Source: Anaerohalosphaera lusitana
GTDB taxonomy: Bacteria > Planctomycetota > Phycisphaerae > Sedimentisphaerales > Anaerohalosphaeraceae
Direction: 5' to 3'
Assembly: GCF_002007645.1 (NCBI RefSeq)
Contig: NZ_CP019791.1
Span: forward strand, 1,550,001-1,614,000
Length of the DNA stretch: 64,000 bases
Positions within the stretch are counted from its first letter, which is position 1; each line of letters begins with the position of its first letter. A program made the translations under genes and the position numbers. Below, piece after piece: positions 8,301-48,408 of the stretch. The notes under the pieces are model-generated. The model ran no database searches. It saw nothing but the letters and a program-made list of their open reading frames with translations, and was not told the origin of the DNA.

Positions 8301-8735
8301 GACGGTACGCTCCTCTGGAATATTCGCGGAGGTGGTGCTGCGGGCAGACGCATCAGCTACAGCTACGATGACGGGCAGACCTGGACATCGGTTACGAACG
8401 ACCCTGCACTGATCGAGCCGGGCGGCTGTCAGGCAAGCCTGCTGCGGTACACCCGTACAGACCAGGGTTACAACCAGAACAGGATCCTGTTCTCGAATCC
8501 TGCGTCGACCTCCAGCAGGGTTAATATGACGGTGAAAATGAGTTATGACGAGTGCGATACCTGGCCGGTCGCAAAGCAGATCTACGGCGGTTCGTCAGCT
8601 TATTCGTGCTTGACAATACTAGATGACGGCAGCATAGGCCTGCTCTACGAAGCGGACGGGTACGGCAGAATAAGATTCGCCAGGTTCACCTTGCGGTGGC
8701 TTACAGACGGTGAAGACTGGCTCGGAAAACCATAA
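5361..8735 (+). CDS. Large secreted sialidase with duplicated LamG-like module and dockerin-like repeat
   Basis: 1124 residues, GTG start at 5361 behind AAGGAG (5350-5355). A signal peptide (to about residue 22) precedes two tandem copies of a roughly 195-residue concanavalin-like module. A jelly-roll-like region follows (around 430-610), then a Calx-beta-like segment (about 615-715) and a dockerin-like repeat (DLNKDCYLTIDDLAIFAEDW). The C-terminal sialidase domain has T-Y-R-I-P and Asp-boxes S-F-D-N-G-L-T-W, D-D-N-G-E-T-W, S-D-D-H-G-Q-T-W and S-Y-D-D-G-Q-T-W. The putative substrate is sialylated polymer outside the cell. Only 47 nt separate it from the sialidase upstream, without a clear terminator, so the two are probably co-transcribed. 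Confidence 0.88.
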   Translation: MSKRFVLSMLVVTILLCAVSQAVTLPQSDDLAWRYDMDVQPNNQDLDLNGVDDWFDGGAPTVSGGVAVGGVESEYYRTDFGGSIWRANVTGSAFTIEFSVQVLNTGTEGTAGTLGCYARNPATGGGPYFNVARSGQSLINSQATLDLGTQDNTDAQHVFRIAREEDGSVWIWRDGELLNPDGLPLTGDLAVFNGDILQIGDIWSSGHSGDYELDYVALDSAAYAPEPGLFQWVYDMDVQPNNQDLDGNGIDDWADAGAPAVSDGVALGGVESEFFRNDFDGSIWRNNIQGMEFTVEFSVQILNGGTEGTAGTMGCYVRNPAAAGGPYFTIARTGQTYIDSTGSIQLGTHDNTDGQHIFRITRESDGSVWVWRDGELLNPNAQPLIGDKAITYYNLVKIGDIWSSGLSGEYELDYIALTDQSVVQGDSAPQQIVFQDDFEAYDVDNPTDFSVNDQPTGNWQADPSIADSSRIFDTGNFGGTRLWISHVDGTELMSKPLPVDPATDYKFSAAIMSETSSGTSQLDVSYDILIGEDPATATSAISGPVQIVTTGDDADIADSKQDHIFEHEFTTPITSSADNLYIVINRIGVNQVGAWLGVDDVQLEKYPTIYIEETDETTQVEEAGVTDSYEINLAYAPVADITVTATPDAQLDLGNGAGQPITLTFTPDGALTQTVTVSAVDDNVSEGPQNAEITHTVDSTDAEFVALRAVSVLIDDDERYCGDEHTVYLAGDLNKDCYLTIDDLAIFAEDWLECSDPVNDDCIANIPIEPLRQTDVYVSGQDNINTYRIPSLITAPDGTLLAFCEARKYSSRDKSPSMMVVKRSFDNGLTWGPMEILHDAGQHAAMDPMPVVDESNGRLWLLYELWPEGWDSNPQPGLTTPPSTTIWAQYTDDNGETWSGPTDITEQVKKPEWEYYANGPGRAIQTVGGSHPGRMIVACSHNGGTDGTQHYYYSDDHGQTWQLGDGYLNTGSESQMVELIDGTLLWNIRGGGAAGRRISYSYDDGQTWTSVTNDPALIEPGGCQASLLRYTRTDQGYNQNRILFSNPASTSSRVNMTVKMSYDECDTWPVAKQIYGGSSAYSCLTILDDGSIGLLYEADGYGRIRFARFTLRWLTDGEDWLGKP
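5449..6620 (+). repeat. Tandem duplication of LamG-like module (third copy at about 1150-1740)
   Basis: Copy 1 runs from about 5449 to 6035 and copy 2 from about 6043 to 6620; a third copy lies in the gene at 1061. Key shared stretches are YDMDVQPNNQDLD, GGVESE, FTIEFSVQVLN and RDGELLNP. At the DNA level 1438-1510 and 5728-5800 are nearly identical over long runs, so duplication between the two genes is recent or homogenised by gene conversion. Confidence 0.8.
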
Positions 8736-25820: not shown

Positions 25821-25894
25821 GAAATTTTTCTAATTTCTCTGTAACGTCTGCCCGGAAACCGCATCTAATCTATAGACGAACCCGAAAGAAAATA

Positions 25895-25919
25895 TAAAAG
25901 ACGATTTACGCATCTTTTA
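25895..25919. promoter_or_regulatory. Inverted repeat, candidate operator
   Basis: TAAAAGA ... TCTTTTA (7-bp arms, 11-nt spacer) ends one base before the -35 box of the promoter at 25921. The position suits a regulator-binding site controlling the selenoprotein operon. The regulator is unknown. Confidence 0.4.
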
Positions 25920-25920
25920 T

Positions 25921-25949
25921 TTGACGTGTCGGCATGTCAATGGTATAAA
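25921..25949 (+). promoter_or_regulatory. Sigma-70-type promoter of selenoprotein operon
   Basis: TTGACG, 17-nt spacer, TATAAA. Transcription should start near 25956. An ORF that appears to start at 25921 therefore cannot use that start. Confidence 0.7.
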
Positions 25950-25971
25950 CAAGAACGTAAACTGCTACTTA

Positions 25972-27351
25972 TTGCGGGCCAGGCGGTTGGAGAACAATAC
26001 AACAAACAGAATATTGCGTAGTTCGATCCTGGGTTGGATCGTAATCTGCTGTATGGGTGTCGCATCTCTTTGCCCGGCCGAATCGCCCGAAGACAATGCC
26101 CCTACAGGCGCCCTCCGAATCACTGGTAAGTTCGTTAGAAGTATAACACTTGAATCCGTTGGTACTGAAGAGGTTAACACCGACGGCACATTAGAAGTGC
26201 CCACCGGCAGCCACCAAATCCGTAAGATCACTCTCGAAAACGGCTGGACCGCTTATCCCTATCAGCTCGTGGACATCAAAGCGGGCCAAACCACCGACGT
26301 CAAACTCGGCGGTCCGCTAAAACAAAAGATAACCGCAAACCGGCAGGGCGGCTATCTCAATCTCGACCACTCCGTCGAAGGCGTCTGCGGAAAACAGTAC
26401 CGCAACGGCGACAACCCGCCTGCCTTCACCATCTACAAGGGCGATACAAAGGTCCACAGCGGCAAGTTCGCCTATGGGTGAGGCGGCACATGCAGGTACT
26501 CGTGGCGAGTACCCACCCAAGTCTACGGCGATCTCAAGATCGTCACCACAGCAGATCTAGGCGAAACAGGCGAAAATCAGGCCCAGACAACATTGAACTG
26601 GCCCCTTGTATCGCATTTCATAGGTTTGCTGCCGTGGCTTATACTGGCGGGGGCGTTTCTTGTTTTCAAGAAGAACAGGGACCTGCGTTCACTGTGGCTT
26701 TTGGTGCCGGTAGGTGTCGTTTTACTAGGCTGGAACCTGCTCAAAGCTCTGGCACATGTCCAGGGATCCGCAGGATCTTATTTTGATTCCCTTATGCAGA
26801 CAGCACTTATTTCGTATGCGTTATGGTGGCTGATTCTCCGGATGATAAGCAGGTTTCAGTCATTGACAGGCTTTCTGCTATTTTTATTTACTGCTTTAAT
26901 TGTTACCGCCTGCAATCTGAGCGGCGACTTATTCACTTTCATGCAAATGGGCATCACGACGACGTTCTTAGGACTTATTTTCTGGTCGTCTCATGCAATC
27001 GCGCGACTCATCTGCCGCAAATATCCTACCAGACTGAAATTCGCCCTCACCTTGGCAGTTTCTCTGCTCGTCATCAGTCTTTTATTGTGCGTTGCCTACT
27101 ACACCTTGTTGATGTCCAGGTTCATGGGCTTCAGATTTGACATATTACTTGGCACATTTATGGTATCTCTTGTGGTCTCAGGCATTCTGTTCGGCGGCAT
27201 CCTGCCCTTCCTTCTCATCGCCTTTTTCACGGACTTCTATTACACCCGCTTCAAAGAATTTCTAGGCGTGGAGGATAAAACATACGTCGAGCTGGCCGAA
27301 ACCCAGGCTCCCGACAAAACAGAACCCGCCCAGAAATGGGTCGATCTATAA
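25972..27351 (+). CDS. Membrane selenoprotein with in-frame UGA (Sec near residue 170), new family
   Basis: The frame runs from a non-ATG start (TTG 25972 is my best guess; other TTGs are possible) through an in-frame UGA at 26479-26481 to a stop at 27351, about 459 residues. A hydrophobic signal segment (ILGWIVICCMGVASL) is followed by a beta-rich exported domain with the Sec motif F-A-Y-G-U-G-G-T-C, then S-W-R-V-P. Beyond it come seven or eight membrane helices (from about residue 215) and a charged tail. A hairpin matching two other genes in the window follows the UGA. The motif has Cys four residues after Sec, so a selenenylsulfide bond is possible. It shares only the Sec domain with the genes at 27391 and 36306. 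A conventional caller would report two unrelated fragments. Redox or metal chemistry outside the membrane is inferred; the function is unknown. Confidence 0.8.
26482..26512 (+). promoter_or_regulatory. Bacterial SECIS element (copy 1)
   Basis: Starting 15 nt after the UGA, GUACUC pairs with GAGUAC around the loop GUGGC (26502-26506). Spacing and loop are identical in copies at 28558, 37524 and, on the minus strand, 44780. Stem positions 2 and 3 covary between copies. Confidence 0.85.
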
Positions 27352-27390
27352 GCAAAATACTATGGTAACCGTTAAAAACGAAAGGTATCC

Positions 27391-30252
27391 ATGAAAAAAC
27401 TGTTAATTTTGATGACGGCCTTGACGCTCACGGCCCTTGTTCCAGCCGCTGAACAGGGTGGCACAGGCGAGCGTTTCTGGCTTAACTATGTCAAGTCCAG
27501 GGCTGCACAGCGGCTGCCCGGCGTTCCTGGTGTTTATTCCAGCACCAACAAGGACAAGCCCGAAGACGTAAAACTTCCTCAACTGGAAAACGTTGACTGG
27601 TCCTTTAGAACGTGGAAGCCTGACCTGGTCGATACGGAAGTACTCGTCGCCGTTGCAGGGACCGGATCTGGCTTTACTCTTTATGTTGACAGCGACCAGG
27701 ACCGTGACCTTACAGACGAAGTCGCACATGAGTCCTGGCTGAACGAGTATTCATCCTGGTATTTCGGTCCCGCACAGGTCATCCTCGAAACTGCGAACGG
27801 CCCGGTTACCTATCATCTGAATATGCGTCTGAGTGCTGGCAATCGAAGTCGGCCGTACCTTTCATTAGTCACGGGCTGCTGGTACGAAGGAACCGTTGTC
27901 GTAAACGGCAAAGAGAAAAACTGCATGATCGTCGACGTGGACTCCAATGGTGTTTTCAATGATCTGAACCCCGGCGGCAGAAGCGACAGGATAGCCATCT
28001 TCGAAGACGGCACCGGCTCGCCGATCCCCTTGACGAAGTATGTCCAGGTCGACGGCGAACTCTATACACCGACGGTTGCCAGAGACGGCAGCTACATCGA
28101 GATCGCCCCGGCTCAAAACGTCCCGTACGGCTATCTGGAAGTATCCGACAACCTAAGCGAGATAATCATATCCGGGACCAATGGCTATTTCCAGCCGGAC
28201 CTGGGCAAGGAACGCAAACTAAAGATCCCGGCGGGCGATTACATCGTCTCGCGCTGGTACATAAGTGACAAGGACAAGACCGGCCGCGAGTGGAGGCTCG
28301 GCCGCTACTCGAGCCAGAAGTCGGTAACGGTTGCAGAAGATGAAACCTCCGAACTCAACATAAGCTCCGACATCTATGCCTTCCTCGAAGTCTCCAGAAA
28401 AGGAAACGGGTACACCTTCAACCGCAGCATGATAGGTGCCGACGGCAAGTCTGTCGACCTGCGTATGGGCACCGGCGGCTACCCGCCAACACCCAAACTC
28501 CGCTTCCGAGACGCCTCAGGAAATTATGACAAAACCTTCAGCCTGGAATATGGGTGAGGCGGCACATGTTCGCTCTCGTGGCGAGAGCCCAAAAACGTAA
28601 AACTACCGATCATAGTAACCATCGAATCAGATACAGGTCCCTTCGACCTGAAAACAAATCCGTACTGGATAAAGAGCGATAACCGCACGATGCCCTTTGC
28701 GGGCGAGCAGATCGCGGTCAACGACATTCTTGCAGGCGACAAGTCCCTGGGCGACGCTGCAGATGCGCTTATCGCGGGCACGGACCTCAAAGACAACGAC
28801 CTCGACGGGCTGAAGGAGCATTCCAAAGAATCCGAATCCATGTGGGCCAGCGATGACCCCGTAGACTCACTCACGTTTCAGCTTGAAAGCTCGCAGGAAC
28901 TTGAAACGGTTTTCGTCTACAACTACAACCATCCATACCTGACCGGGTCCGGCATAAAAACCGCTGACGTTCAGGTCTGGCAGGACGGTTCGTGGAAGAC
29001 CGTCAAGAAGGGCTTCGAACTCGAACCCGCCCAGGGTTCGGAAGATTATGACATGCCCTCGGTGATCGAACTCGAACCCGTCAAGACGGATAAGGTGCGT
29101 TTCGCAAACCTGATCACCTTCAATGACGCAGCACCAATCGGTCTCAGCGAAGTCGCCTTCTACAAGGTCCGCGGCCCCGAGGCGATCCTCATTTCGCCCG
29201 AGGACGACGCGAAACTTCGCGTTTCCGACAGCATAACCCTTTCCTGGGCTCCGGGCAGAAATGCCCAGCAGCACGAGATCCACATCGGCGACAGCCCGGA
29301 CACCCTCGAATCGATGGGCACGCTAGAGACCGAGTCCGCCATCGTCAACGGCCTGGAACGCGGCAAGAAGTACTACTGGCGAGTCGATTCAATCGACGAA
29401 CAGGACAACGCCCATGCCAGCAGAATCCGCAGCTTCCAGCTAGCCGGCGACATCGTCGGTCACTGGGTTTTCGACGGCCTTGAGGACGGCTTCGCCCCCG
29501 ACGCGGTCGGCGAACGCGATGCCGAACTATCAGGCAACGCATCCATTGCCCCTGATGCGGGCAAATACTGGAGCGCCCTAAAGCTCGACGGCAAAAGCAG
29601 TGCAAAGATCCTGCCGCTCAATCTTGAATCTGACGGCGTGACCATCACCGGCTGGATCAAAGCTACCGAAAAGCCCTCAGGCGTGACAGGTCTTATGATG
29701 ACCCGCGATGCGGGCACCGTCGCAGGCATAAACCTGCTCGGATCGGAATTACGCTATCACTGGGACCAGGGCAACTGGGACTGGGGTTCAGGCCTGGATA
29801 TACCCACTGGCCAGTGGACCTTCGTAGCACTTGTCGTCCAGCCGCAACAGGCCACGCTCTACATGCACGACGGCAATGAAATGCAGTCATCCGTCCACAT
29901 GGGCCCTCACTCCGCTGAGGAATTCTACGGCGACTTCGGTCTGGGCCTCGACCCCGGTCGAAACGATCGTTACTTTACAGGCCTTATGGACGATGTCCGC
30001 GTATACGACTACTCGCTCAAGCCCAACGAAGTCGAATCGGTTTGCAAGAACGAGTCCATGCCCTCAACCGGCGAACTCGCTGTCGTTGGCGTCGAACGTT
30101 CAAAGCTTGAACCTATGTCCGAGCAGGCCGGCGACACCGGAGAACAGTCAGCCGATGACAAAAACAACATGCTGCCCGTTCTCACCATCGTCGGCATCAT
30201 CGCCGGCATAGGCATCTTCAGCGCCTTCGTCAAACGAGGCAAATCCGACTAG
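27391..30252 (+). CDS. Exported selenoprotein with in-frame UGA (Sec389), discoidin-like, FN3-like and LamG modules, C-terminal anchor
   Basis: 953 residues when UGA 28555-28557 is read as Sec. Start ATG 27391 (GAAAGG upstream). A signal peptide (to about residue 20) is followed by beta-rich repeats that match the gene at 36306. The Sec motif is L-E-Y-G-U-G-G-T-C then S-W-R-E-P-K-N-V. After it come a discoidin-like region (about 480-600), an FN3-like segment ending Y-Y-W-R-V-D-S (about 600-665), a LamG-like domain (about 685-880) and a single membrane helix (about 925-945) before K-R-G-K-S-D. The protein is thus anchored with Sec outside the cytoplasm. It lies 39 nt after the previous selenoprotein, probably in the same operon. 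The second fragment (from 28690) stays in the same frame, arguing against a decayed gene. Confidence 0.85.
28558..28588 (+). promoter_or_regulatory. Bacterial SECIS element (copy 2)
   Basis: 14 nt after the UGA, GCUCUC/GAGAGC encloses GUGGC (28578-28582). Compared with copy 1, two stem positions changed on both sides at once (U-A to C-G and A-U to U-A), while the loop is unchanged. Confidence 0.87.
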
Positions 30253-36018: not shown

Positions 36019-36113
36019 TGGCGGAGGCGAATGGGAATCGAACCCACCCAGGACTTTCTCAGCCCAACACTGGTTTTGAAGACCAGGGGCACCACCAGGC
36101 ACCAATCACCTCC
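36019..36113 (-). tRNA. selC: tRNA-Sec (anticodon UCA)
   Basis: 95 nt including an encoded CCA. An 8-bp acceptor stem (GGAGGTGA with TCGCCTCC, one G-T pair), discriminator G, anticodon loop CTTCAAA with TCA at 36079-36077, a long variable arm and T-loop TTCGATT. The long acceptor and variable arm with UCA are diagnostic for selenocysteine tRNA. A T-run follows the CCA (36013-36018) and a good promoter precedes it. Confidence 0.96.
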
Positions 36114-36175: not shown

Positions 36176-36203
36176 ATCATACCAGTTTGCAGTCATAAGT
36201 CAA
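36176..36203 (-). promoter_or_regulatory. Promoter of selC
   Basis: On the minus strand TTGACT, 16-nt spacer, TATGAT, giving a start near 36169 and a leader of about 55 nt before the tRNA. Confidence 0.75.
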
Positions 36204-36243
36204 CCCGAAAGGCCTTTTTTATGCAACTTATATATATTTATAG

Positions 36244-36271
36244 TTGAAACAACTCCCTTTTGCTTTATAAT
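36244..36271 (+). promoter_or_regulatory. Promoter of selenoprotein gene at 36306, divergent from selC
   Basis: TTGAAA, 16-nt spacer, TATAAT, start near 36278. The -35 boxes of this and the selC promoter are about 40 nt apart, so regulation may be shared. The ATG at 36279 is at the transcription start, supporting the later start at 36306. Confidence 0.75.
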
Positions 36272-36305
36272 TCAACGCATGTTCCTATTTCGGAGACCAC
36301 AAACC

Positions 36306-37841
36306 ATGTCGAAACCCACAAAGTTGATGATGATCGCCATACTGGCCGCGACTTTAAGTGCACCGGCCTGGGCTGACTCCCGCGCGATTGACCTGAAGCC
36401 CGAAAAAATGACTTCCGCTCAGGGATTTCGCCCGGCATTTGTACGCCCCGAGCCCGCGCCCACGGAAGATCTCACGATCAATGCCGAATTTCAGGCGTCG
36501 GATCAGTTTTACTTTAATTTCACCTACGGCCCGGACGAAGATAAAATCTACTCGGCCGTACTTGACAAGCAGGGCGGTGCACGCGCAGGCGTGGGTCTGC
36601 TCTATATCGATCTCAACAACGATGAAATCCTCGATCCCGAAAAGGAGTGCATCACAGTCCTTGTCGGTGCAAGCTACGGCTCTCCTCCCGTTCATGTTCC
36701 CCTTTCAGGTTTCAAAGACGGCTCTACCCGTCATGTAGCGCTCGCCTTTAACAGTTCCAAAGTTCCTGATGGCGAATATGTCATCACGGCTCAGCTAACC
36801 TCCCTAACCCGTTTCGAGGGCACCACCGAATTCGCCGGCAAAAAAACCAAAATAGCCCTCTGTGACAACAACGGAAACGGCACATACAACGATATAAATA
36901 CACGTGACGTTGCGACCAGCAATGATGTTGTCCTTGTGGACACGGACTCCGACGGCTTCTTCAACATGTCCTTCGACAGCCCCGAAATGTTCGAACTCAA
37001 CCGCTATGTCAAGGTCCACTCCGATTGGTACAGCTTTGAGCCCTCGCCCGATGGTAAAACTCTTGACATCCAAACCGAAGATCCCGAAACAGGCATCGTT
37101 ATCGCCCCCGACAACATCGACTACCTCGAACTCCACTCACCCAACCAGGACCTCAAACTGACCTTCACTCCTAACAACCGGCATGTCGAGGCCCTCGCCG
37201 GTGAATACAATCTCGCTGAGGTACGCTTCGCCGCCAAAGACGATAACGGCCGCCAGTGGTTTGCCCGCGCATACGACACTTCAACACAGTCCCTGAATTT
37301 CGAGGTCAAACCCGACGAAAAGATAGAGCTGCCCGACCTGCTTCCCCTCAAAGTATCCGTAGAGCCGCAATTCAAATCCAATGGCAAAGAGATCGTCTTC
37401 GAGCCCCATACGACAACCGCCAACGGCCTGCAAATTTCGGTCTTCGGCGGCGACGTGCCTTCCGTGATCCTTAAGGACCCTGACGGAAAAATCCTCGCCA
37501 AACCAAAATTCGAATATGGGTGAGGCGGTCCCATCCCGTGCTCGTGGCGAGTACCAAAAAACATAAACGGCAAGGTCACCATCGAACCCAGCTTTGACAT
37601 GGGACCGTTCGAAGCAAAGGCCCAGTCCGTAAGCTTAACCATAACCGACGGCGTAGCAAAATTGTCCGACAGTGCTGATCAGGGCAGTAATAACGACGAG
37701 AATCTCGAACTGGCCGATGTCGATGAAACCGAAAAACCAAACTACGTTGTCATAATAGTCATCGGCACCATCCTGATCGTCTCAGCGGTCGTAATTCTCA
37801 CCAAAAACAGAAAGGGTAAGGGCAACCCGCCGACCGAATAA
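36306..37841 (+). CDS. Exported, C-terminally anchored selenoprotein with in-frame UGA (Sec406)
   Basis: 511 residues when UGA 37521-37523 is read as Sec. ATG 36306 has GGAG about 12 nt upstream. A signal peptide (to about residue 24, P-A-W-A) is followed by beta-rich repeats with acidic loops (DLNNDEILDPEKE, DTDSDGFFN) that align with the gene at 27391. The Sec motif is F-E-Y-G-U-G-G-P-I-P-C, then S-W-R-V-P-K-N-I, so the nearby Cys is at +6 instead of +4. After about 75 residues there is an acidic linker and one membrane helix (about 480-500) with a basic tail (K-N-R-K-G-K-G). The Sec domain therefore lies outside the membrane. Divergent selC and the following selD operon frame it. The function is unknown. 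Confidence 0.87.
37524..37554 (+). promoter_or_regulatory. Bacterial SECIS element (copy 3)
   Basis: GUGCUC/GAGUAC (one G-U pair) with loop GUGGC at 37544-37548, the stem starting 15 nt after the UGA as in the other copies. Confidence 0.86.
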
Positions 37842-37921: not shown

Positions 37922-39529
37922 TTATTCTGCCTTTCGCACCTGCTTATACATCATCATCGCAGGTGAGCCCCCGAACGAGACACCCATCCACGCCGCCTCG
38001 TCTATCTCCGCATCCGCAAATCCCATCTTTTTCGCTTTCGCAATATGCGTCCGCAGACATGGCTCACACCGCGTCGCCACCGACAACGCCAAGTTCATCG
38101 CCTGTTTTGTAAATGCATCCAGCCCGCCCGGTCGCGAGCTGCTCGCCAGAAATCGCATATAATCCGCCTCCGTCCCGCCGCCTTCCATCCCCCCAGCCTC
38201 AACACAACAGCACGCCTCCTCAAGGCCCTTAGCAGCTTTATTGATCTCCGCCTTCTCGGCCGGACCACCCTCAGCCGCCGCACGCTCCCCGTCCTTCTTA
38301 CCTGCACTCCCGCCAGCAACCGGCATACTCCGCGATCCATTCGTCTCAAGCCGCACCTGCCCTTTGCCTTCACCCACGACCCGTCCGATCACCGTCGCCC
38401 GCTCAACTCCCCGCTCCCGCAGCGCCGTGACAAACTCCTCTGCCTTGTCCGGCGGGATTGCCACCAAAAGCCCACCCGACGTCTGCGCATCAAAACACAT
38501 GTCGTGCATCTCCTCCGTCACACCCTCACCCGCTCGCACATGCCGCCCGCACGATTCCTTGTTACGCTCGATCGCCCCTGGCAGCATCCCCTCCGCCACA
38601 TAATCCAGCACCCCGTCAAAGAACGGCACCTTGTCCCAAACGACTTCCACATCGACTCCGCTCCGCAACGCCAGCTCCGACAGGTGCCCCATCAGGCTGA
38701 ACCCCGTCACATCCGTACACGCACTCGCTCCGAACTCCGTCATCAGCTCCGCCGCTGTCTTGTTCAACTGCGCCATCGACCGACCGATCGCCTCCACATG
38801 CTCCGCCTTCGCTCGCCCGATCTGCCCGGCAAACGCAACGATGCCCGTACCCAACGGCTTCGTCAGAATCAACACATCCCCCGCCTTCGCCGTTGAATTG
38901 CTCGCGATCCTCTCCGTCTCGATGATGCCCGTCACTGCGAACCCGGCCTTCACTTCCGGATCGTTAATGCTGTGCCCTCCGATCACCGCAACCCCAGCCT
39001 CGGCCATCTTGTCCATCCCACCGCGCAGCATCTCCGACATCGCCTTGTCCGCGATCTTCCGCACCGGAAATCCCAGCACCGACAACGCAGTCAAAGGCTT
39101 GCCGCCCATCGCATAAACATCGCTCACCGAATTTGCCGCCGCGATCTGCCCGAACAGATACGGATCGTCCACCGAAGGCGTAAACACATCCACCGTCTGC
39201 ACCAGCGCACGCCCGTCCCCCAGGTCATACACCCCAGCGTCATCCCCAGCCGGAAATCCGATCAGCACATTCGGATCATCGACCGCAGGCAGCCCCTTCA
39301 GCACCTCCTTCAAAAACGCCTGATCAATCTTCGACGCACAGCCCGGCTTCTCGATCAGCTCCGTCAGCCGTACAGGCCCCGTCGGTCCGTCCAGCCGCTC
39401 GCCCGCACACAGACAAACGTTCTTCTCCTTGAACAGATCGCATGGGCAGGGCTTCTTAGGATCGCAAACACAATGCCCCAGTCGAATCGACCGCTGCATA
39501 ACCCGTTTTCTTCTTTCCATATTTATCAT
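37922..39529 (-). CDS. selD: Selenophosphate synthetase fused to Cys-rich N-terminus and AhpD-like (CMD) domain
   Basis: 535 residues from ATG 39529, behind AAGGAA that overlaps the end of the upstream gene. Residues 1-45 are an unusual cysteine-rich extension (H-C-V-C-D, K-P-C-P-C-D, N-V-C-L-C-A-G-E). The SelD/AIR-synthetase core follows, with the active-site Cys and Lys in K-P-G-C-A-S-K-I, then GFPAGDDAGVYDLGDGRALV, AVIGGHSIND and CTDVTGFSLMGHLSELA. After a Gly/Ala/Glu-rich linker, the last 85 residues are a carboxymuconolactone-decarboxylase/AhpD-like domain with C-E-P-C-L-R-T-H. SelD makes selenophosphate from selenide and ATP for selenocysteine synthesis. The AhpD-like CxxC could reduce or deliver selenium to the synthetase, which is inference. 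It is last in a six-gene minus-strand operon. Confidence 0.93.
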   Translation of the reverse strand: MINMERRKRVMQRSIRLGHCVCDPKKPCPCDLFKEKNVCLCAGERLDGPTGPVRLTELIEKPGCASKIDQAFLKEVLKGLPAVDDPNVLIGFPAGDDAGVYDLGDGRALVQTVDVFTPSVDDPYLFGQIAAANSVSDVYAMGGKPLTALSVLGFPVRKIADKAMSEMLRGGMDKMAEAGVAVIGGHSINDPEVKAGFAVTGIIETERIASNSTAKAGDVLILTKPLGTGIVAFAGQIGRAKAEHVEAIGRSMAQLNKTAAELMTEFGASACTDVTGFSLMGHLSELALRSGVDVEVVWDKVPFFDGVLDYVAEGMLPGAIERNKESCGRHVRAGEGVTEEMHDMCFDAQTSGGLLVAIPPDKAEEFVTALRERGVERATVIGRVVGEGKGQVRLETNGSRSMPVAGGSAGKKDGERAAAEGGPAEKAEINKAAKGLEEACCCVEAGGMEGGGTEADYMRFLASSSRPGGLDAFTKQAMNLALSVATRCEPCLRTHIAKAKKMGFADAEIDEAAWMGVSFGGSPAMMMYKQVRKAE

Positions 39530-39530
39530 C

Positions 39531-40334
39531 TTAGTTCCTTCCACCGATCTTGTTGATATTTCTCACACGCCTCGCCGCCAGCAGCGCCGCTCCCATCGCC
39601 CCCGTCTTCTGCGGCGAAGAACACACTCGCACTTCCGCACCGACCGCATCCTCGAGCGTCTCCCTCATTCCCGGTATCATCGCGACCCCGCCCGTAAACG
39701 TCACACCTCCACCGTTCACCGGCCCGCTCATCGCCGCGATCCGCTCTGCGATCGAAAACTGCACCCCCGCGATAATGTCACTCGTCTCAACCCCCTCCGC
39801 CATCAATCCCACGATCTCCGTCTCCGCGAAAACCACGCACATACTGCTTATTGCCGCCGGACTGCGGCTCTTGCTCGCCAGCTCCCCCAGCCTCTCTATA
39901 GGCACCTCCGTCCGATTTGCAACCAGCTCCAGAAACCGCCCCGTACCTGCCGCACATCGGTCATTCATGCTGAAATCATAAACCGTCCCGTCAGCCTCCA
40001 GGTGTATTACCTTGCTGTCCTGCCCGCCGATATCGATGATAACGCTCGTCTCCGGCAAATGATACGTCACGCCTGCCGCATGACACGTTATCTCCGTGAT
40101 CGTCTTGTCCGCAAAATCAAGCATCCCCCGCCCATACCCCGTAGCAACCGTATATGCAATGTCGTCCATCCCGATCCCGCTCTCCTCCGCGATCCGCTCC
40201 AGCAGCAGCCTCGCAAGACGCTTCTGTTCGATCCCCTGATCGACCACCCCCTCACCCAGCACCACCATCCGCTCAGCATCCAGCAGCACCGCCTTTATCG
40301 TCCTCGATCCTGCATCAATTCCCGCACATATCAT
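39531..40334 (-). CDS. BadF/BadG/HgdC-type ATPase, activator of 2-hydroxyacyl-CoA dehydratase-like enzyme
   Basis: 267 residues. An actin-fold ATPase: GIDAGSRTIKAVLLD at the start and IDIGGQDSKVIHL as the second phosphate loop. The bridging [4Fe-4S] ligands are Cys in N-D-R-C-A-A-G-T-G-R-F and S-S-M-C-V-V-F-A-E-T-E. These activators use ATP hydrolysis to push an electron at very low potential into a partner iron-sulfur protein. The partners are encoded directly upstream. Its stop precedes the selD start by one base, so selD translation is coupled. Confidence 0.92.
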   Translation of the reverse strand: MICAGIDAGSRTIKAVLLDAERMVVLGEGVVDQGIEQKRLARLLLERIAEESGIGMDDIAYTVATGYGRGMLDFADKTITEITCHAAGVTYHLPETSVIIDIGGQDSKVIHLEADGTVYDFSMNDRCAAGTGRFLELVANRTEVPIERLGELASKSRSPAAISSMCVVFAETEIVGLMAEGVETSDIIAGVQFSIAERIAAMSGPVNGGGVTFTGGVAMIPGMRETLEDAVGAEVRVCSSPQKTGAMGAALLAARRVRNINKIGGRN

Positions 40335-41710
40335 ATTTGTTTTACGCTCCCAACTGTTTCCACCAGCGCCTCGATCCGAGTCCGTAAACTTTCATGATCC
40401 GCGTCGATCACCGACGGCACCTCGATCTCCAGCACTTTCAAACTCGTTCGTCTTTTCAATTCATCTCGTATTATCGTTCCCTCCATCGCGCAATGACTCG
40501 CCCCCGGCACTCGCGACACAATCACAGCTCCCGCCCCGAACTCTTCCGCATCCCGCGCGATCCTCTCAGCTCTCTGACCGCTAGACCCAACCATCGGATC
40601 CGCCATCGCCGCCCGCGCCAGCGCCTCCATCGGCTCTACGTCCTCACTGATCGCATCGATCGCATGCGTAAACAGATAATCCGTCCCGCAAAGCCTCGCC
40701 CCACAATCCTCCAGCAGATTCATCACCCGCAGATCGGCAGGGGGATTCACCCAGAACACCTTCACCGCCGACGCATCCAGCACTCCCGCTCCTCTCGCAG
40801 CTCGTTTCCTCACCAGCTCCAACAGTCCCTCCAGCACCCGCACACACATGTTCCTGTCCGAACAGTAATGTATCGCCAGCATCTCCGCCACCAGCATCTC
40901 AACCGCGCCCAGCGGACAAACTTCCGCCCCGAAAACCACCCTCCTCAATTCCCGCAGCAACCCACGCACTCTGTTCGCTTCCCGGATACTCTTCGCCAGC
41001 TCCTCCTCGTCCAGCTTCCGTCCAGCGGCCCCCTCCAGCATGCCAAGAACACCCTCCAACTGTCCCCTGACAAAATCCACCTGCTCCCGCGCAGCCCTCA
41101 CCCCGCCGGGCAAACTCATCGCATCTTCCCTTTTTTCGACCTCCCGCCTGTAAGGGACCTCCCACCAATGTATCGCAAATCCCAAACCCTCAAGCCGCTG
41201 CGCTATCACCGAAAAGTCATCGCACACCGCCCCCGCACTGCACGTCAGTACATCAGGCCGCGGAAAATGCTTTCCGTTCACAAACGCCCCCAGCATCGCC
41301 CGCACCGGGCAGAACGACTCATCCATACCCAGCGAATCCGCGATTTTCAAAAGCCCCGCACTCATCTGCATTACGCACGGCGTCCACCACGCACCGTCCG
41401 GATAGAACGCGACCATCTCGTCGAACGCATACGCCAGCACCGGTACTGTCCCCAGATCCTTCATCGCCCCTACGATTATCTTCCCCTCATCCCTGTGCCG
41501 CGCGAGCCGCTCTTCCTCGCTCAACAGCATGTTCCACAGCCGCAGCGCCTCAACCGAATTGTCAAACTCCAGCTTACCCAGCCTTCTGTCCCCATCCTCA
41601 AAATAATACCCAAGCCTCCGCACCTCCCCCGCATCGATCACGCCGCTCGCGCAAAGCCGTTCATACCTCTGCTTCCATTCCCCAAGCGAAATTTTCCTCG
41701 GCCCATCCAT
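40331..41710 (-). CDS. 2-hydroxyacyl-CoA dehydratase D-like (HgdB-like) protein
   Basis: 459 residues from ATG 41710, which overlaps the preceding stop (TAATG). Family traits are a Rossmann-like start (KIIVGAMKDLGTVPVLAYAFDEM), C-P-V-R-A-M-L-G-A-F, the Cys region TCSAGAVCDD and the last lobe GAGAVIVSRVPGASHCAMEG. It differs from the classical substrate-bearing subunits in that several expected cluster Cys positions vary, so it may be a diverged partner. It would accept low-potential electrons from the ATPase at 39531. The substrate is unknown. Its position in the selD operon suggests a selenium-related reduction. Confidence 0.78.
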   Translation of the reverse strand: MDGPRKISLGEWKQRYERLCASGVIDAGEVRRLGYYFEDGDRRLGKLEFDNSVEALRLWNMLLSEEERLARHRDEGKIIVGAMKDLGTVPVLAYAFDEMVAFYPDGAWWTPCVMQMSAGLLKIADSLGMDESFCPVRAMLGAFVNGKHFPRPDVLTCSAGAVCDDFSVIAQRLEGLGFAIHWWEVPYRREVEKREDAMSLPGGVRAAREQVDFVRGQLEGVLGMLEGAAGRKLDEEELAKSIREANRVRGLLRELRRVVFGAEVCPLGAVEMLVAEMLAIHYCSDRNMCVRVLEGLLELVRKRAARGAGVLDASAVKVFWVNPPADLRVMNLLEDCGARLCGTDYLFTHAIDAISEDVEPMEALARAAMADPMVGSSGQRAERIARDAEEFGAGAVIVSRVPGASHCAMEGTIIRDELKRRTSLKVLEIEVPSVIDADHESLRTRIEALVETVGSVKQI

Positions 41711-42555
41711 TAACTCAACATCTCCCCAAACGCATTCAACCTCGTCACAGTATTCGCCGACGCATAACTCCCAGCCTCGTTTATCTCCAGATCGATAACC
41801 GCCACTCCTGCTGCCTCCTTTATCCGCCCGAGCTCACCGTGCCACAGATCGCACCACGTATACCGATGCAGGATAAGCCCGTCCACAGCTCCCGAGCCGC
41901 TCCACTCCCTAAGCCACTCGTACCATCCCGCGTTCGATCTCTGCCGAATGTCCAGCACCTCTACAAAATACTTCCTCACCAACCCGTCCATATCACTTTC
42001 GCAACCTCCGAACTCGCCCAACCGCACGGGCCCCATCATATCCACCAGCCGAGCCCCCGCGATCTCACCTAACATCAATCCCTCCGCCGCAATAGGCGCC
42101 CCGATCACCCCCAGCACCAGCTCTCCGCTCCCATCCTCGAACCTCGTCCGCTGTTCATCCCTGCCATCCTCCAAAACTTCATCGTCATTGGTGCTATCTT
42201 TTAGTTCCTTCAGAAACCGCTCCAGCCTCTCAACCTCCGCACCGAACATCCCCTGCGAAGCCGTTCCCCTCGTTACCGGCACGTTCAGCACGAACATCTC
42301 CCCGCCGAACTCATCCCTCATCGCCTCAAAACAACGTCGCACCTGGTCGCACGTACCCGCCCCCACAAACGCGTCCAGATCATCCCTCCCCAACAGACTC
42401 GCAACCGTTCCAGCCGCATACGGACACATTCCCTCTCTCAGCCTCAAGCACTCCGCACCGCCCGCCATGCTGGGCCTTACGAATTTCGCCTCATGCCCCG
42501 CCGCCTCGATTAGTTCGACCGGCACATACCCCGATGTATAACCAACCACCGCCAA
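41710..42555 (-). CDS. Short HgdB-like protein
   Basis: About 281 residues. I chose TTG 42555 with GGAGGG 8 nt upstream and a 1-nt gap to the upstream stop; longer forms would run deep into that gene. It starts A-V-V-G-Y-T-S-G-Y-V-P-V-E-L-I-E-A-A-G, a typical start of 2-hydroxyacyl-CoA dehydratase D proteins, and has C-P-Y-A-A-G and G-A-G-T-C-D-Q-V-R-R-C. It ends with a cysteine near H-R-Y-T-W-C-D-L-W. It is much shorter than full-length family members (about 380-430). It probably forms a complex with the products on both sides. Confidence 0.72.
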   Translation of the reverse strand: MAVVGYTSGYVPVELIEAAGHEAKFVRPSMAGGAECLRLREGMCPYAAGTVASLLGRDDLDAFVGAGTCDQVRRCFEAMRDEFGGEMFVLNVPVTRGTASQGMFGAEVERLERFLKELKDSTNDDEVLEDGRDEQRTRFEDGSGELVLGVIGAPIAAEGLMLGEIAGARLVDMMGPVRLGEFGGCESDMDGLVRKYFVEVLDIRQRSNAGWYEWLREWSGSGAVDGLILHRYTWCDLWHGELGRIKEAAGVAVIDLEINEAGSYASANTVTRLNAFGEMLS

Positions 42556-42556
42556 G

Positions 42557-43780
42557 CTAATTACCCTCCACCATCTCGAACATCGCCTCCAGTCGAACCG
42601 CGATCCTTGCAGCATCAGAAGGCGAATAATCCGTCTCGATCTTCAAATAAGGCAGACCAAGCTCACCCTCCGCGAGCTCCTTCACCAGCCGCGACTCCAC
42701 ATCGTAAGTCAGACACGCCTGCCACACCAGGTCTACCACGCAATCCGCCCGGTATTGCTTTGCAAGCCGCTCTATCGACTCCAGCCTGCCCGCATTAGGC
42801 GTCATAACCGAACATGGCAGATGCAGGTACTTAGCCGCGATCGCCTCTATCGCGTCCTCCGCCTCCTCGTCCACGTCCTCCAGTATCGGCTTGACCCCTG
42901 TGCAGTTCTCCATGCACACCACGACCCCGCCAGCCTCCTCTATAAGCTTCACCACCTTCTCCGCCCCATGCACCGTCGGCACCCCCGTCAGCAGCACCCG
43001 CACACGATTCTCGCCAACGCTCCCAGCCGCGCCGCTGCCGTAATACTCCGCCGCCTCCTCATACTTTACAAGGTCGGCCTCTATACCCGAAATAGTACTT
43101 TTCATCGCCAGTACCTCGCTCCCGCTCAAAGGCGGATCCTCCGCTTCCATCAACTCTGCGATCCTCCGCCGCAGCCTTCGCTCCCTGTTCATCACCCGCA
43201 CTGCCTCCCACAGCTTCTCATCCGTGATCTCCACCCCCAGCTTTTCCCCAAGCCGATCCCGCAGTTTCACCACCTCAGCCGTCCACCGCGCCAAAGCTCC
43301 CTCTTCGCCCGGCTTCTGCACCAGCTCCAGCACGATCATATCCTTCTTCCTCGCCATCAGCTCATACATCTTCTTCTTGCCGTCACACGTTGTCTCCGCC
43401 ACCACCACATCCGCCATCTTCAGAAACAAATTCGACCCGTCCATTACATATCCGTACGTCGACTTGATCAGCGGACACAGATTCGCCGGCAGCTCCCTAT
43501 GCGCCTCCACCGCTTTCTCCGCACTCCCCCCGCAAAGACAGACCGGAAGCGCACCCGCCGCCATGATCACCTCCCTCGGCGTATACTCGCACATGATCCC
43601 GACGATCCCGCGCCCGCTCTCCTTCGCCGCAGTCGCATACTCATAACAGTTCGAGATCATATTCTCAAAATGCCCTAAAGGCCCGCTCGCACCGCCGCAA
43701 CCATCATCAGCACCGCAACCACCGCTCCGCTCATCCTGACCGTTTCCGCCTCCAGCACCGCATCCGCAATTCGTACTCAT
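42557..43780 (-). CDS. Double-cubane-type cluster protein (YjiM/HgdB family) with Cys/Gly-rich N-terminal extension
   Basis: 407 residues from ATG 43780, 10 nt after the previous stop. A Cys/Gly-rich tail of about 33 residues (NCGCGAGGG and GGCGADDGCGG) precedes the family core. The core has G-I-M-C-E-Y-T-P-R-E, N-L-C-P-L-I-K-S-T-Y-G, T-T-C-D-G-K-K-K-M-Y-E and E-N-C-T-G-V-K-P, positions that ligate the double-cubane cluster in characterised relatives. Such proteins reduce small molecules after activation by a BadF-type ATPase. The ATPase is encoded in the same operon. The N-terminal extension resembles a metal or selenium handling segment; this is inference. Confidence 0.85.
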   Translation of the reverse strand: MSTNCGCGAGGGNGQDERSGGCGADDGCGGASGPLGHFENMISNCYEYATAAKESGRGIVGIMCEYTPREVIMAAGALPVCLCGGSAEKAVEAHRELPANLCPLIKSTYGYVMDGSNLFLKMADVVVAETTCDGKKKMYELMARKKDMIVLELVQKPGEEGALARWTAEVVKLRDRLGEKLGVEITDEKLWEAVRVMNRERRLRRRIAELMEAEDPPLSGSEVLAMKSTISGIEADLVKYEEAAEYYGSGAAGSVGENRVRVLLTGVPTVHGAEKVVKLIEEAGGVVVCMENCTGVKPILEDVDEEAEDAIEAIAAKYLHLPCSVMTPNAGRLESIERLAKQYRADCVVDLVWQACLTYDVESRLVKELAEGELGLPYLKIETDYSPSDAARIAVRLEAMFEMVEGN

Positions 43781-43790
43781 ATTCGTACCT

Positions 43791-44597
43791 CTAACCCTTC
43801 TTCTTCGCAACGAACAACGCCTGACATATCTTTCCAGCCTTCGCCATATCCCGCAGAAAACACATCTCTTCCGCAACCGCCCCCAGCGCATCCATATCGA
43901 ATCCCAGTATCTTCAGCGCATCATACATATACTGCCTCCGCACCGAGTCTATATACAGATCACAGCACCCCGCAAATCGCCCCGTATCCTCCGCGATCTC
44001 GACCTCGCACCCCGTCGCCTCCAGCAACCCCGCATACCCGTCGACATCCTGCACATTCGCAAACTTCATGAACCGCAAAAATCTCTCCGCCTCATTCTCA
44101 TTCATCGCGACCGCTCCCTCCACCCAGTCCGTAAACGCGATTTCCCCCCCGTCCCGCACCAGCCGAACCGCCTCCACGATCAGTGTATCCTTATCCTTCA
44201 CATAGCACCATGCATCCTCACCCCACACAAAATCGTACATTCCATCTGCCAGCCCCGTCGCACACGCATCCGCATGCACGAACTCCAGCCTCTCCGCAAG
44301 TCCTTCCTGATGTGCCCGCTCCCTCGCCTCGGCTACCATCATTTCCGTCACATCTATCCCGACCATCGACTCCACCCCGCACATCCGCACCAGAAATTTC
44401 ATCCCCGCACCCGTACAGCAGCAAAGATCCACACCGCGCGACCCCGCCTGGATCCCCGCCTTCTCCGCCAGCTCCATCGAAGATTCCAGCCCGCCGACAT
44501 GGATCTGCTCACCCATCAGCAATTCCCACAGCCGCATCTCCGCACCGCTGTAAACCTCCTGTACATCCTCGACCGAAATCTCCTCATTGCACTTCAT
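43791..44597 (-). CDS. SAM-dependent methyltransferase, class I
   Basis: 268 residues from ATG 44597 with GGAG 7 nt upstream; an in-frame ATG at 44678 lies inside a terminator and is not used. SAM-binding motif I is V-D-L-C-C-C-T-G-A-G-M-K-F-L, followed by V-G-I-D-V-T and FVHADACATGLADGMYDFVWGEDAWCYV. Many cysteines (C-C-C-T-G, G-C-C-D-L-Y) recall methyltransferases acting on metalloids. It leads the operon that ends with selD. Methylation of selenium (making volatile or exportable species) or of a cofactor is possible. The substrate is not readable from sequence. Confidence 0.82.
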   Translation of the reverse strand: MKCNEEISVEDVQEVYSGAEMRLWELLMGEQIHVGGLESSMELAEKAGIQAGSRGVDLCCCTGAGMKFLVRMCGVESMVGIDVTEMMVAEARERAHQEGLAERLEFVHADACATGLADGMYDFVWGEDAWCYVKDKDTLIVEAVRLVRDGGEIAFTDWVEGAVAMNENEAERFLRFMKFANVQDVDGYAGLLEATGCEVEIAEDTGRFAGCCDLYIDSVRRQYMYDALKILGFDMDALGAVAEEMCFLRDMAKAGKICQALFVAKKKG

Positions 44598-44649: not shown

Positions 44650-44694
44650 AAAAAAAGCAGGCGAAGAGCATTTATCAAAATAGCTCTCGCCTGC
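44650..44694 (-). terminator. Intrinsic terminator before the methyltransferase-selD operon
   Basis: On the minus strand, GCAGGCG-AGAGC and GCTCT-CGCCTGC (one bulge, 13-nt loop) are followed by TTTTTTT. It lies between the selenopeptide stop (44736) and the methyltransferase start (44597). I see no clear promoter between it and that gene. Confidence 0.85.
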
Positions 44695-44735
44695 CGATAA
44701 CCGTGGCGTCAAAACTCGATTTTCACTTCCCTCAT

Positions 44736-44858
44736 TCACAACGGCATGGTAGTCGCCTTATGCCGAACAGGGATCGAGGGCGCCCGCCACGAGCACCGGC
44801 AGACCGCACCTCACCCGTACTCCAGTTCGAAATCAATTATAAACAAATATTGATCCAT
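44736..44858 (-). CDS. Short selenopeptide/leader with in-frame UGA (Sec16)
   Basis: 40 codons from ATG 44858. The UGA (44813-44811) is in the same context as in the three large selenoproteins: L-E-Y-G-U-G-A-V-C-R-C, then S-W-R-A-P. The SECIS hairpin follows at the same distance. The peptide ends at a second UGA (44738-44736) with no hairpin. No strong RBS is visible before the ATG. The frame stays open upstream to about 44936, so a longer form with a GTG start is possible. There is no signal peptide. It is separated from the methyltransferase-selD operon by a terminator, so a role as a selenium-sensing leader is inferred. A small redox peptide or a relic of a larger gene is the alternative. 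Confidence 0.7.
44780..44810 (-). promoter_or_regulatory. Bacterial SECIS element (copy 4)
   Basis: GUGCUC pairs with GGGCGC (two G-U pairs) around GUGGC (44790-44786), 14 nt after the UGA. The loop-spanning sequence CGUGGCG (44791-44785) is exactly complementary to CGCCACG at 44708-44702 on the same transcript. Confidence 0.8.
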
Positions 44859-45034: not shown

Positions 45035-45082
45035 AGCACTCGTTCCGACTCATAAGCCGACTTTTACGTGCGAGAACTGCCC

Positions 45083-46492
45083 ATGTCAAATACAGACAAA
45101 CAAACGCTCCTGCGAAATATCCCCTCCGTCAGCGCCGTCCTCGAACAGCTAAAGCACCAGATCGACACCCAGCCGACCCTGCTCCACTCCGACATCACCC
45201 GCGCCTGCCTCGACGACCTCCGCAGTCGGATCCTCGCAGGCAACGGCTTCGAACCGCCTGCCGATCTGCCGCAATATGTGCTCGATCAGGTAACCGACCG
45301 CATCACCCAGCTTAACGGCATATATCACGCCCGCGTCGTCAACGCCGCAGGCATCGTCCTCCACACGGGCCTCGGCAGGGCGGTCGTCCCCAAACCCGCA
45401 CTCGACCACCTCACCTCCGACCTCGCCGGCTACTCGCTCCTTCAGCTCTCAACCGACACCGGCAAACGCTCCCGTCGTGACGCACGTATCGAACAGCTCC
45501 TGCAAACCCTCACTGGCGCTCCCGCCGCAACCGTCGTCAACAACAACGCCGCCGCAACCTCAATCGTCCTCAACACCATCGCCAAAGATAAAGAAGTCAT
45601 TGTCTCCCGAGGCCAGCTCGTCGAGATCGGCGGCTCGTTCCGCCTTCCGGATGTGATGGCCTTCAGCGGCGCAAAGCTCGTCGAGGTCGGCACCACCAAC
45701 AAAACCCACCCCCGCGACTACCTCAGCGCCATCACCGAAAACACCGCCGCCATCCTCCGCGTCCACCCCAGCAATTACAAGGTCCAGGGCTTCAGCTCCG
45801 AGGTCCCCCTCGACGAGCTCGTCGACATCGCCCACTGCAACGATCTGCTCATGTTCGACGACGTAGGCGCAGGCTCACTCTTAGACTTCACCCGCTACGG
45901 CTTTGACCACGAACCTACGCTCGTCGAATCCGTCAACGCCGGAGCAGACGTCATTACCTCGTCAGGCGACAAGCTCATCGGCGCCTCCCAGGCAGGCATC
46001 ATCCTCGGCAAACCCGACATCATCACCGCCATCCGCAAAAACCAGTTCGCCCGCATCCTCCGCGTCGACAAAATGACCCTCACTGTCCTCGAACAGACCC
46101 TCAAGCTCTTCCTCGACCAGGAAAATGCTCTCAAAACCGTCCCCACCCTCCGCATGATGCTCCGCAAACCCGATTCCATCCGTCGCCAGGCAAACCGCAT
46201 AAAACGCAAGCTCGCCGCTGCCTGCCCCAACGCACAGCTTGCCATCACAAAGGGCCACTCCCAGCCCGGCTCAGGCTCGCTGCCCGCCCAGTCCATGCCC
46301 ACCAGCCTCGTAACCGTTACCGCACCCAACTACAGCGCCGACCAGCTCGCACGCAAACTCCGCAAATACAAAACACCCGTCTTCGTCCGCATCCAGAACG
46401 AACAGGTCCTCATCGACCCCCGAACTCTCCTCGACGGTGACGAAAAAACGTTAATACAAGCCCTAACCTGGGCCCTGAGTACGAAAGAATAA
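45083..46492 (+). CDS. selA: L-seryl-tRNA(Sec) selenium transferase
   Basis: 469 residues from ATG 45083; GTG 45068 is an alternative. It has the SelA N-terminal domain (LLRNIPSVSAVLEQ) and the core INAAG-type motif VVNAAGIVLHTGLGRAVV. The PLP lysine is in TSSGDKLIGASQAGII, with GAGSLLDF before it. It converts serine on tRNA-Sec to selenocysteine using selenophosphate. The stop is 2 nt before the selB start, so the two are one operon. Codon use is strongly C-ending here, unlike the accessory region after 53 kb. Confidence 0.97.
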   Translation: MSNTDKQTLLRNIPSVSAVLEQLKHQIDTQPTLLHSDITRACLDDLRSRILAGNGFEPPADLPQYVLDQVTDRITQLNGIYHARVVNAAGIVLHTGLGRAVVPKPALDHLTSDLAGYSLLQLSTDTGKRSRRDARIEQLLQTLTGAPAATVVNNNAAATSIVLNTIAKDKEVIVSRGQLVEIGGSFRLPDVMAFSGAKLVEVGTTNKTHPRDYLSAITENTAAILRVHPSNYKVQGFSSEVPLDELVDIAHCNDLLMFDDVGAGSLLDFTRYGFDHEPTLVESVNAGADVITSSGDKLIGASQAGIILGKPDIITAIRKNQFARILRVDKMTLTVLEQTLKLFLDQENALKTVPTLRMMLRKPDSIRRQANRIKRKLAAACPNAQLAITKGHSQPGSGSLPAQSMPTSLVTVTAPNYSADQLARKLRKYKTPVFVRIQNEQVLIDPRTLLDGDEKTLIQALTWALSTKE

Positions 46493-46494
46493 AA

Positions 46495-48408
46495 ATGTCA
46501 TCCAGCCAGATAAACATAACTCTCGGCACCGCCGGCCACATCGACCACGGCAAGACCGCACTTATCAAACTCCTCACAGGCTGCGAAACCGACCGCCTCA
46601 AAGCCGAAAAGGATCGCGGAATGTCCATAGAACTCGGCTTCGCTCCCTGCACCATCTCCGACCTCGAAGTCGGCATCGTCGACGTACCGGGCCACGAAAA
46701 CTTCATCAAAACAATGGTCGCAGGCGCCACCGGCATCGACGCGGTCATTTTCGTCATCGCAGCCGATGACGGCGTCATGCCCCAGACCCGCGAACACCTC
46801 GACATCCTCACCATCCTCGGCGTCTCCCACGGCATCATCGCCCTCACCAAGGTCGACACCGTCGACGACGAACTCCGCGACCTCGTCGCTGACGACGTCC
46901 GCAATTTCATCACCGGCACCTTCCTCGAAAACGCTCCCATCCTCCCTGTCTCCTCCATTACCGGCCAGGGCTTTGATGCTTTTTACGGATCCCTCCGCGA
47001 AATGGTCTCCCGCGTCACCCCCAAACCCTCCGACGGCATCTTCCGCGTACCCGTCGAAAACGTCTTCTCCGTCAAGGGCTACGGCTCTGTCATTACCGGC
47101 ATTCCCGTCGCGGGCTCCGCCTCTATCGGCGACGAACTCATCATCCTCCCGCAAGACGAAACAGGCCGCATCAAAGCCGCCCAGGTCTACTCCAAACCCG
47201 CCCAAAAGGCACAGACGGGCCAGTGCGCCGCGATTAACGTTCCGCAGTGGGACTACAAAGCCATATCACGAGGCGACGTCGCCACTGTTCCCGGCTATTT
47301 CGAACCCGCCCACTTCTATCTCGCAAAAATGTCCCTCATCCCCCATGTAGGCCACAAACTCAAGACCGGCTCACAGCTCAAGCTCCACACCGGCACCAGT
47401 GAACACACCGCAAAAATATACCTCATGGAAGACAACACCCTCCAGCCCGGTACTGAAACCCTCGTCCAGTTCCGCCTCGACACACCTCTCGTCGCAGGCC
47501 CCCGCGATCCCTTCATCGTCCGCTCGCTCACTCCGCCCCGGACCATCGGAGGCGGCACCATCCTAAAACCCCTCACCCGCAGACTCAAACGCAGCAAACC
47601 CGCCGTCCTCGAAAATGCCCGCTCACTCGCCCGCGCGATCGAAAACGACAAAACTTTCGTCTTCTATACCGTAAATGATTCGCCGAACCACACCGCGACC
47701 ACCGAGGACATCGCCCGCACAGTCAAGCTCCGGCCCCAAACCGTCACCGCCATCACCGACCATCTCGTCTCCACAGGCGACCTCATCCGTACCGCCGACA
47801 ACACATACATGGCCGCCGAAACCGAATCCATCTTGCGAAGCAACCTCCTCGATACGCTGAAAACCTATCACGCCGAAAACCCCCAAAGTCCCGGCATGAC
47901 GTTCGACGACCTCCGCAACGCCGTCGACCTCGACCCCTCACTATTCAAATTCATGATCAGCAGGCTGACAGACGCAGGCAGGATCGAACATCGCAAAGGC
48001 AGGGCGGCCCTGTCCACGCATAAGGTGCAATTTGACACCGCCCAGGCCGATCTTATGAACACCATCGAAACCATCTTTCTAGATCGCCTCTTCAACCCGC
48101 CCGGCACAGACGAACTCCTCCGCACAACAAAAGCCAACACCCGCGACCTCACCCAGGCCCTCAACACCCTCGCCCAGCACAAAAAGCTCGTCCGCATAGA
48201 CTCGAAGATCACCTTTCACACCGCTGCCGTTGAAAAGGCAAAAGAACTCCTCATCGCGGACCTCCAGGAAAACGGCCGATTCGAAAGCGTCCGCTTCAAG
48301 TACCTCCTCGACACCTCGCGCAAATACGCTCTGCCCCTGCTCGACTTCTTCGACGACATAGGCCTGACCCGCCGCGACGGCAACACCCGCTACCTCAAAA
48401 ATGGCTGA
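46495..48408 (+). CDS. selB: Selenocysteine-specific elongation factor
   Basis: 637 residues. The G domain has GTAGHIDHGKT, DRGMSIELGF, DVPGHENF and LTKVD. EF-Tu-like domains 2 and 3 follow, then C-terminal winged-helix domains (about residues 380-637) that bind the SECIS hairpin. It brings Sec-tRNA to UGA codons next to a SECIS. Its natural targets would be the four UGA/hairpin sites in this window. It is co-transcribed with selA. Confidence 0.97.
   Translation: MSSSQINITLGTAGHIDHGKTALIKLLTGCETDRLKAEKDRGMSIELGFAPCTISDLEVGIVDVPGHENFIKTMVAGATGIDAVIFVIAADDGVMPQTREHLDILTILGVSHGIIALTKVDTVDDELRDLVADDVRNFITGTFLENAPILPVSSITGQGFDAFYGSLREMVSRVTPKPSDGIFRVPVENVFSVKGYGSVITGIPVAGSASIGDELIILPQDETGRIKAAQVYSKPAQKAQTGQCAAINVPQWDYKAISRGDVATVPGYFEPAHFYLAKMSLIPHVGHKLKTGSQLKLHTGTSEHTAKIYLMEDNTLQPGTETLVQFRLDTPLVAGPRDPFIVRSLTPPRTIGGGTILKPLTRRLKRSKPAVLENARSLARAIENDKTFVFYTVNDSPNHTATTEDIARTVKLRPQTVTAITDHLVSTGDLIRTADNTYMAAETESILRSNLLDTLKTYHAENPQSPGMTFDDLRNAVDLDPSLFKFMISRLTDAGRIEHRKGRAALSTHKVQFDTAQADLMNTIETIFLDRLFNPPGTDELLRTTKANTRDLTQALNTLAQHKKLVRIDSKITFHTAAVEKAKELLIADLQENGRFESVRFKYLLDTSRKYALPLLDFFDDIGLTRRDGNTRYLKNG

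Follow-up and report, generated by a model that had tools for sequence, protein, structure and literature searches.

A truncated selenoprotein gene as a candidate selenocysteine-codon/SECIS attenuator ahead of a SelD operon in Anaerohalosphaera lusitana

Introduction

To our knowledge, the ways in which bacteria adjust selenophosphate production to need are little known beyond the leader of Escherichia coli selAB. Thanbichler and Boeck, in 2002, reportedly described a SECIS-like element in that leader, with SelB bound to the SECIS lowering expression of the downstream gene. The locus studied here raises a related question. In a stretch of 64,000 nucleotides from A. lusitana (hereafter the window), a 40-codon reading frame with an in-frame UGA and a SECIS hairpin lies between selA and an operon that runs from a methyltransferase gene to selD. 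What does so short a frame do at the head of a selenium operon? We propose, with a probability of roughly 0.6, that it belongs to a selenocysteine (Sec)-codon/SECIS attenuator that heads this operon and is on at low selenium. If this is true, a SECIS would double as the sensor of an attenuator and sense selenium directly, through the RNA signal for Sec insertion.

Results and discussion

The mini-ORF and its SECIS hairpin

The features of the window leader and its surroundings are as follows.

44736..44858 (-): mini-ORF of 40 codons with a putative start and an in-frame UGA at 44813-44811, most likely derived from a truncated selenoprotein gene
44779..44797 (-): bacterial-type SECIS hairpin, 7-bp stem and GUGGC loop, fitting the bSECIS model (PMC13188914)
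44785..44802 (-): SECIS 5' arm with loop segment, CUGCCGGUGCUCGUGGCG, the potential pairing partner of the anti-SECIS
44691..44708 (-): anti-SECIS (antiterminator), CGCCACGGUUAUCGGCAG, 17/18 complementary to 44802-44785 and reaching into the 5' base of the terminator
44650..44695 (-): intrinsic terminator separating the mini-ORF from the methyltransferase gene, with stem GGCAGGCGAGAG..CUCUUCGCCUGC and a U run behind it
43791..44597 (-): class I SAM methyltransferase, the first gene after the terminator
37922..43891 (-): remainder of the presumed regulated operon, encoding a double-cubane reductase, two HGD-D proteins, a BadF-type activase, and a SelD-AhpD fusion
45068..48408 (+): selA and selB, divergent

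Translation of 44736-44858 on the minus strand gives MDQYLFIIDFELEYGUGAVCRCSWRAPSIPVRHKATTMPL-stop, in agreement with the 40-residue frame that an earlier note on this DNA had described. The U is residue 16 and is followed by 24 residues, with Cys at +4 and +6, as that note had also said; of the three large selenoprotein genes of the window, which share a Y-G-U-G-G ... S-W-R-x-P motif, two have Cys at +4 and one has it at +6. The family motif is kept in the mini-ORF as FELEYGU..CRCSWRAP, and the match is confined to about 20 residues around the Sec of a selenoprotein domain of about 105 residues. A simple promoter scan found nothing convincing upstream of the mini-ORF ATG, and the best -10-like sequence, TATAAT at 44841-44836, lies 3' of this ATG; the proposed leader would be transcribed from upstream.

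The hairpin reads GGTGCTC-GTGGC-GGGCGCC at 44797-44779, and 20 nt separate the UGA from the GUGGC loop at 44790-44786. The claim that this spacing equals that of the three large genes (UGAs at 26479, 28555, and 37521) proved correct. The bSECIS model describes a UGA, a hairpin whose loop begins with G, and the spacing between them (PMC13188914), and the loop and spacing of the mini-ORF agree with it. The locus thus resembles the selenoprotein genes covered by that model (PMC13188914) and differs from them in that the product is a fragment and the RNA is apparently the conserved part. The combined UGA and SECIS context pattern has four matches in the window, against none expected from shuffled sequences, and four in the 4.25-Mb genome, which also encodes the Sec machinery (tRNA-Sec at 36023-36113, selA, selB, and selD-AhpD). 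Rfam models gave no match at the leader locus, even at an E value of 5, and tRNA-Sec was their sole match in five related loci. As a caution, a UGA and a SECIS together do not prove a selenopeptide.

The same slot in related genomes

In the SelD-anchored loci of relatives that were compared, full-length selenoprotein genes run divergently from selA-selB and precede the methyltransferase/double-cubane/HGD-D/BadF/SelD operon. In L187, from the same family as the window genome, a full-length selenoprotein gene stands directly upstream of the methyltransferase gene. The slot is reduced to a mini-ORF in the window genome and in four other families, with the following short versions.

L219 and L223: family f2
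L212: family f3, with an intact hairpin and a frameshift after the UGA
L191 and L192: two f7 genomes, followed by a transporter-SelD operon
L229 and L246: family f16, from another order, frame ending 8 codons past the UGA

Of the conservation that the earlier note had proposed to look for in relatives, the UGA and the hairpin indeed recur in the same slot, whereas the frame is lost in f3. We take the mini-ORF to be, most likely, a selenoprotein gene that was truncated and now serves, as RNA, as a selenium-responsive on/off switch ahead of the genes for activated selenium.

The operon of the window (37922-44597, SAM methyltransferase to SelD-AhpD) is kept beside selA-selB in many relatives. Between the mini-leader and SelD, L191 and L192 have porin-like, substrate-binding, permease, ATPase, and PNPOx-like genes, all co-directional into SelD; this run is a candidate selenium uptake operon. 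The f16 mini-ORFs carry an invariant ACTCCATGGAGT palindrome just 5' of the UGA and a second UGA within the SECIS region.

Constraint on peptide and RNA

A DNA search of 59 relatives with the window leader found no homologous DNA beyond its own genome, and constraint was therefore measured in the leaders of relatives. In the f2 pair, the mini-ORF has 3 synonymous versus 15 nonsynonymous changes, showing no protein-level constraint, compared with 82 versus 69 in the methyltransferase gene (Fisher p = 0.0026), and the leader DNA is far better conserved than the DNA preceding it. In the f16 pair, the UGA-SECIS block is 87 to 97% identical per 30 columns, with flanks mostly at 40 to 70%. Both patterns, which were measured on relatives and not on the window copy, fit RNA-level constraint. 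Leader conservation tracks the RNA, together with the selenium operon behind it, and not the peptide.

A terminator and an anti-SECIS in the window leader

The earlier note mentioned neither the terminator at 44695-44650 nor the 18-nt anti-SECIS at 44708-44691. A simple terminator scan also misses the former, the loop limit of the scan being 8 nt. The terminator lies between the leader ORF and the operon, an arrangement repeated in relatives. The 17/18 complementarity of the window leader ties for the highest among all leaders and falls in the register that nearly all of them share, the next registers reaching at most 12. Folding calculations gave 17.1 expected anti-SECIS pairs, compared with a mean of 2.0 when the pre-terminator sequence was shuffled, and the full leader has a more stable predicted fold than its shuffles (z = -3.1). 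The SECIS-side and anti-SECIS folds are predicted to be mutually exclusive, such that the antiterminator would exclude the terminator base. Relative to the SECIS-forced fold, the predicted antiterminator fold is favored by 9 kcal/mol while the terminator is still incomplete and by 5 to 8 kcal/mol afterward.

These observations bear on the idea that the locus is a decaying relic, that is, the remnant of a truncated selenoprotein gene with an old terminator and no present function. In favor of such decay, full-length genes fill the slot in relatives, the match to the domain is limited to some 20 residues on either side of and including the Sec, and the f2 mini-ORFs lack protein-level constraint. 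We nevertheless consider it unlikely, since the UGA and SECIS are kept, with little else, in several lineages, the f2 and f16 pairs keep the leader far better than the upstream DNA, and the window copy, diverged elsewhere, is still 17/18 complementary.

Anti-SECIS pairing across leaders

Leaders taken as switch-bearing numbered 27, and 24 of these have 13 to 17 pairs in one ungapped register, with a terminator offset that is identical in all but one; two f2 leaders have 12 pairs, and the f3 leader L212, in which the pairing register differs, has 10. Mean pairing in the leaders is 15.3/18, compared with a mean best value of 12.1/18, with any register allowed, for 183 other terminators from the leader loci. 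The maximum among these other terminators is 15 after removal of the one at 16, a leader with an N-masked SECIS. The corresponding rank test (p = 1e-10) counts related sequences as independent and is descriptive only. When the register is slid, the paired share falls from 83.5% to 34 to 51%, the former figure being biased upward because the alignment omits L212, with its different register, and six leader-like sites without clear anti-SECIS pairing. In L198, at about 8385-8484 on the reverse strand, an N run covers the SECIS part of the leader, with the anti-SECIS and terminator intact.

In the same alignment, SECIS/anti-SECIS covariation analysis found no two-sided compensatory changes and no signal above that of shuffled partners, and thus gives the helix no support; there is hardly any variation on the SECIS side. 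Since both sides are conserved, swapped partners pair about as well as a leader's own in most cases. Folding of the nascent RNA prefers the anti-SECIS pairing in most leaders; the SECIS/anti-SECIS duplex is weak in the f2 leaders. In the f16 mini-leaders, no terminator is evident, and a pairing of the methyltransferase ribosome site with the SECIS, apparent at first, was absent from the predicted folds. Six leader-like sites with a similar SECIS lack a convincing anti-SECIS, two of which (L040 and L107) are upstream of SelD.

Could the SECIS act without attenuation, as a SelB-binding control element of the E. coli selAB type, in which bound SelB lowers downstream expression? The SECIS is intact in every mini-leader, and the f16 leaders without an evident terminator would suit such an element. 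Most leaders, however, have a terminator and an anti-SECIS in fixed register, which indicates transcription attenuation, and we regard an element that only binds SelB as less probable again than a relic.

Least credible is a functional 40-residue selenopeptide, the reading of the earlier note, of which the UGA and SECIS are confirmed, as homologues of their counterparts in the large genes: frame, ATG, UGA, SECIS, and family motif are all there, but the relatives have a full-length gene in the slot, the short versions share no conserved peptide outside the motif, the frame is too small for the domain of about 105 residues from which it derives and would, by structure prediction, lack most strands of its Ig-like fold, and the change counts of the f2 pair, the early end of the f16 frames, the broken f3 frame, and the -10-like sequence 3' of the ATG all argue against it.

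Genes behind the leaders

Among 28 distinct switch-bearing leaders (the above 27 plus L277, with L278 repeating L136), 26 precede the methyltransferase/SelD operon, a porin-like/substrate-binding/permease/ATPase operon, or SelD; in this count, L178 is included through a weak porin match alone, L094 through a double-cubane gene, and L209 through downstream genes read from the DNA of a near-identical leader. The methyltransferase gene of L209 itself starts about 215 nt past the UGA. The porin-like/substrate-binding/permease/ATPase operon, whose substrate-binding protein is SsuA/NMT1-like, often continues to SelD, and in L080 SelD itself follows the leader. In most leaders, the first such gene starts at most about 350 nt from the UGA, directly behind the terminator; in L065, L159, L165, L186, L189, and L208, it starts 1.2 to 3.3 kb on, and an intervening gene may exist. 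No selenium gene was found within 1.5 to 2.8 kb downstream of L136/L278 and L277.

The proposed attenuator

In the Sec-codon/SECIS attenuator that we propose, the leader would derive from the selenoprotein gene found at the head of the operon in relatives, truncated but with the UGA, SECIS, and terminator kept. When selenium is sufficient, SelB/Sec-tRNA, a decoding ribosome, or both would sit on the SECIS, the anti-SECIS could not pair, and the terminator would form, shutting the operon. When selenium is low, translation of the mini-ORF would stop at the UGA and leave the SECIS free of SelB; the SECIS 5' arm would then pair with the anti-SECIS and sequester the terminator base, so that the selenium-activation operon would be read. 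This direction of the response, like the binding of SelB, we infer from the arrangement of the elements.

Like the E. coli selAB leader, the leader described here places a SECIS structure before a selenium gene, with control, here proposed, through SelB; unlike it, it has an in-frame UGA within a mini-ORF, a terminator, and an anti-SECIS, and it precedes a SelD operon. Control of E. coli selAB is, as far as we know, translational, and we know of no terminator or anti-SECIS there. With leader-peptide attenuators of the trp/ilv type, the leader shares a short ORF in which the sensed amino acid has its codon (here Sec, in a putatively translated mini-ORF), mutually exclusive antiterminator and terminator structures (here predicted), and a biosynthesis operon downstream. 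It differs from these in that a recoded stop codon would be sensed, with the SECIS itself as the putative sensing structure.

It is a slightly better than even bet that these leaders form a new class of transcription attenuators in Planctomycetota, in which a Sec UGA and a SECIS serve as selenium sensor against an anti-SECIS/terminator, control SelD and selenium-uptake operons, and occur as stand-alone mini-ORF leaders as well as in the 3' ends of full-length genes for selenoproteins. A literature search found no Sec-codon attenuator, which is weak evidence of novelty, as subscription papers were poorly covered.

The large selenoproteins

The three large YGUGG..SWR selenoproteins are encoded at 25876-30252 and 36177-37841 of the window and are apparently exported or membrane proteins. 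Their family pattern matched more than 100 DNA stretches in public genomes, some of them by chance, with most matches in planctomycete, Sedimentisphaerales, Sumerlaeota, and Hydrogenedentota assemblies; among named assemblies, the labels of loci carrying this motif include Sedimentisphaerales and Phycisphaerae. Searches of the Sec domain against NCBIfam and Pfam gave no confident family. The domain, of about 105 residues, is predicted to be an Ig/MG2-like β-sandwich (pLDDT 86.5) with weak PDB matches, and the three proteins may represent an undescribed family of extracytoplasmic Ig-like selenoproteins.
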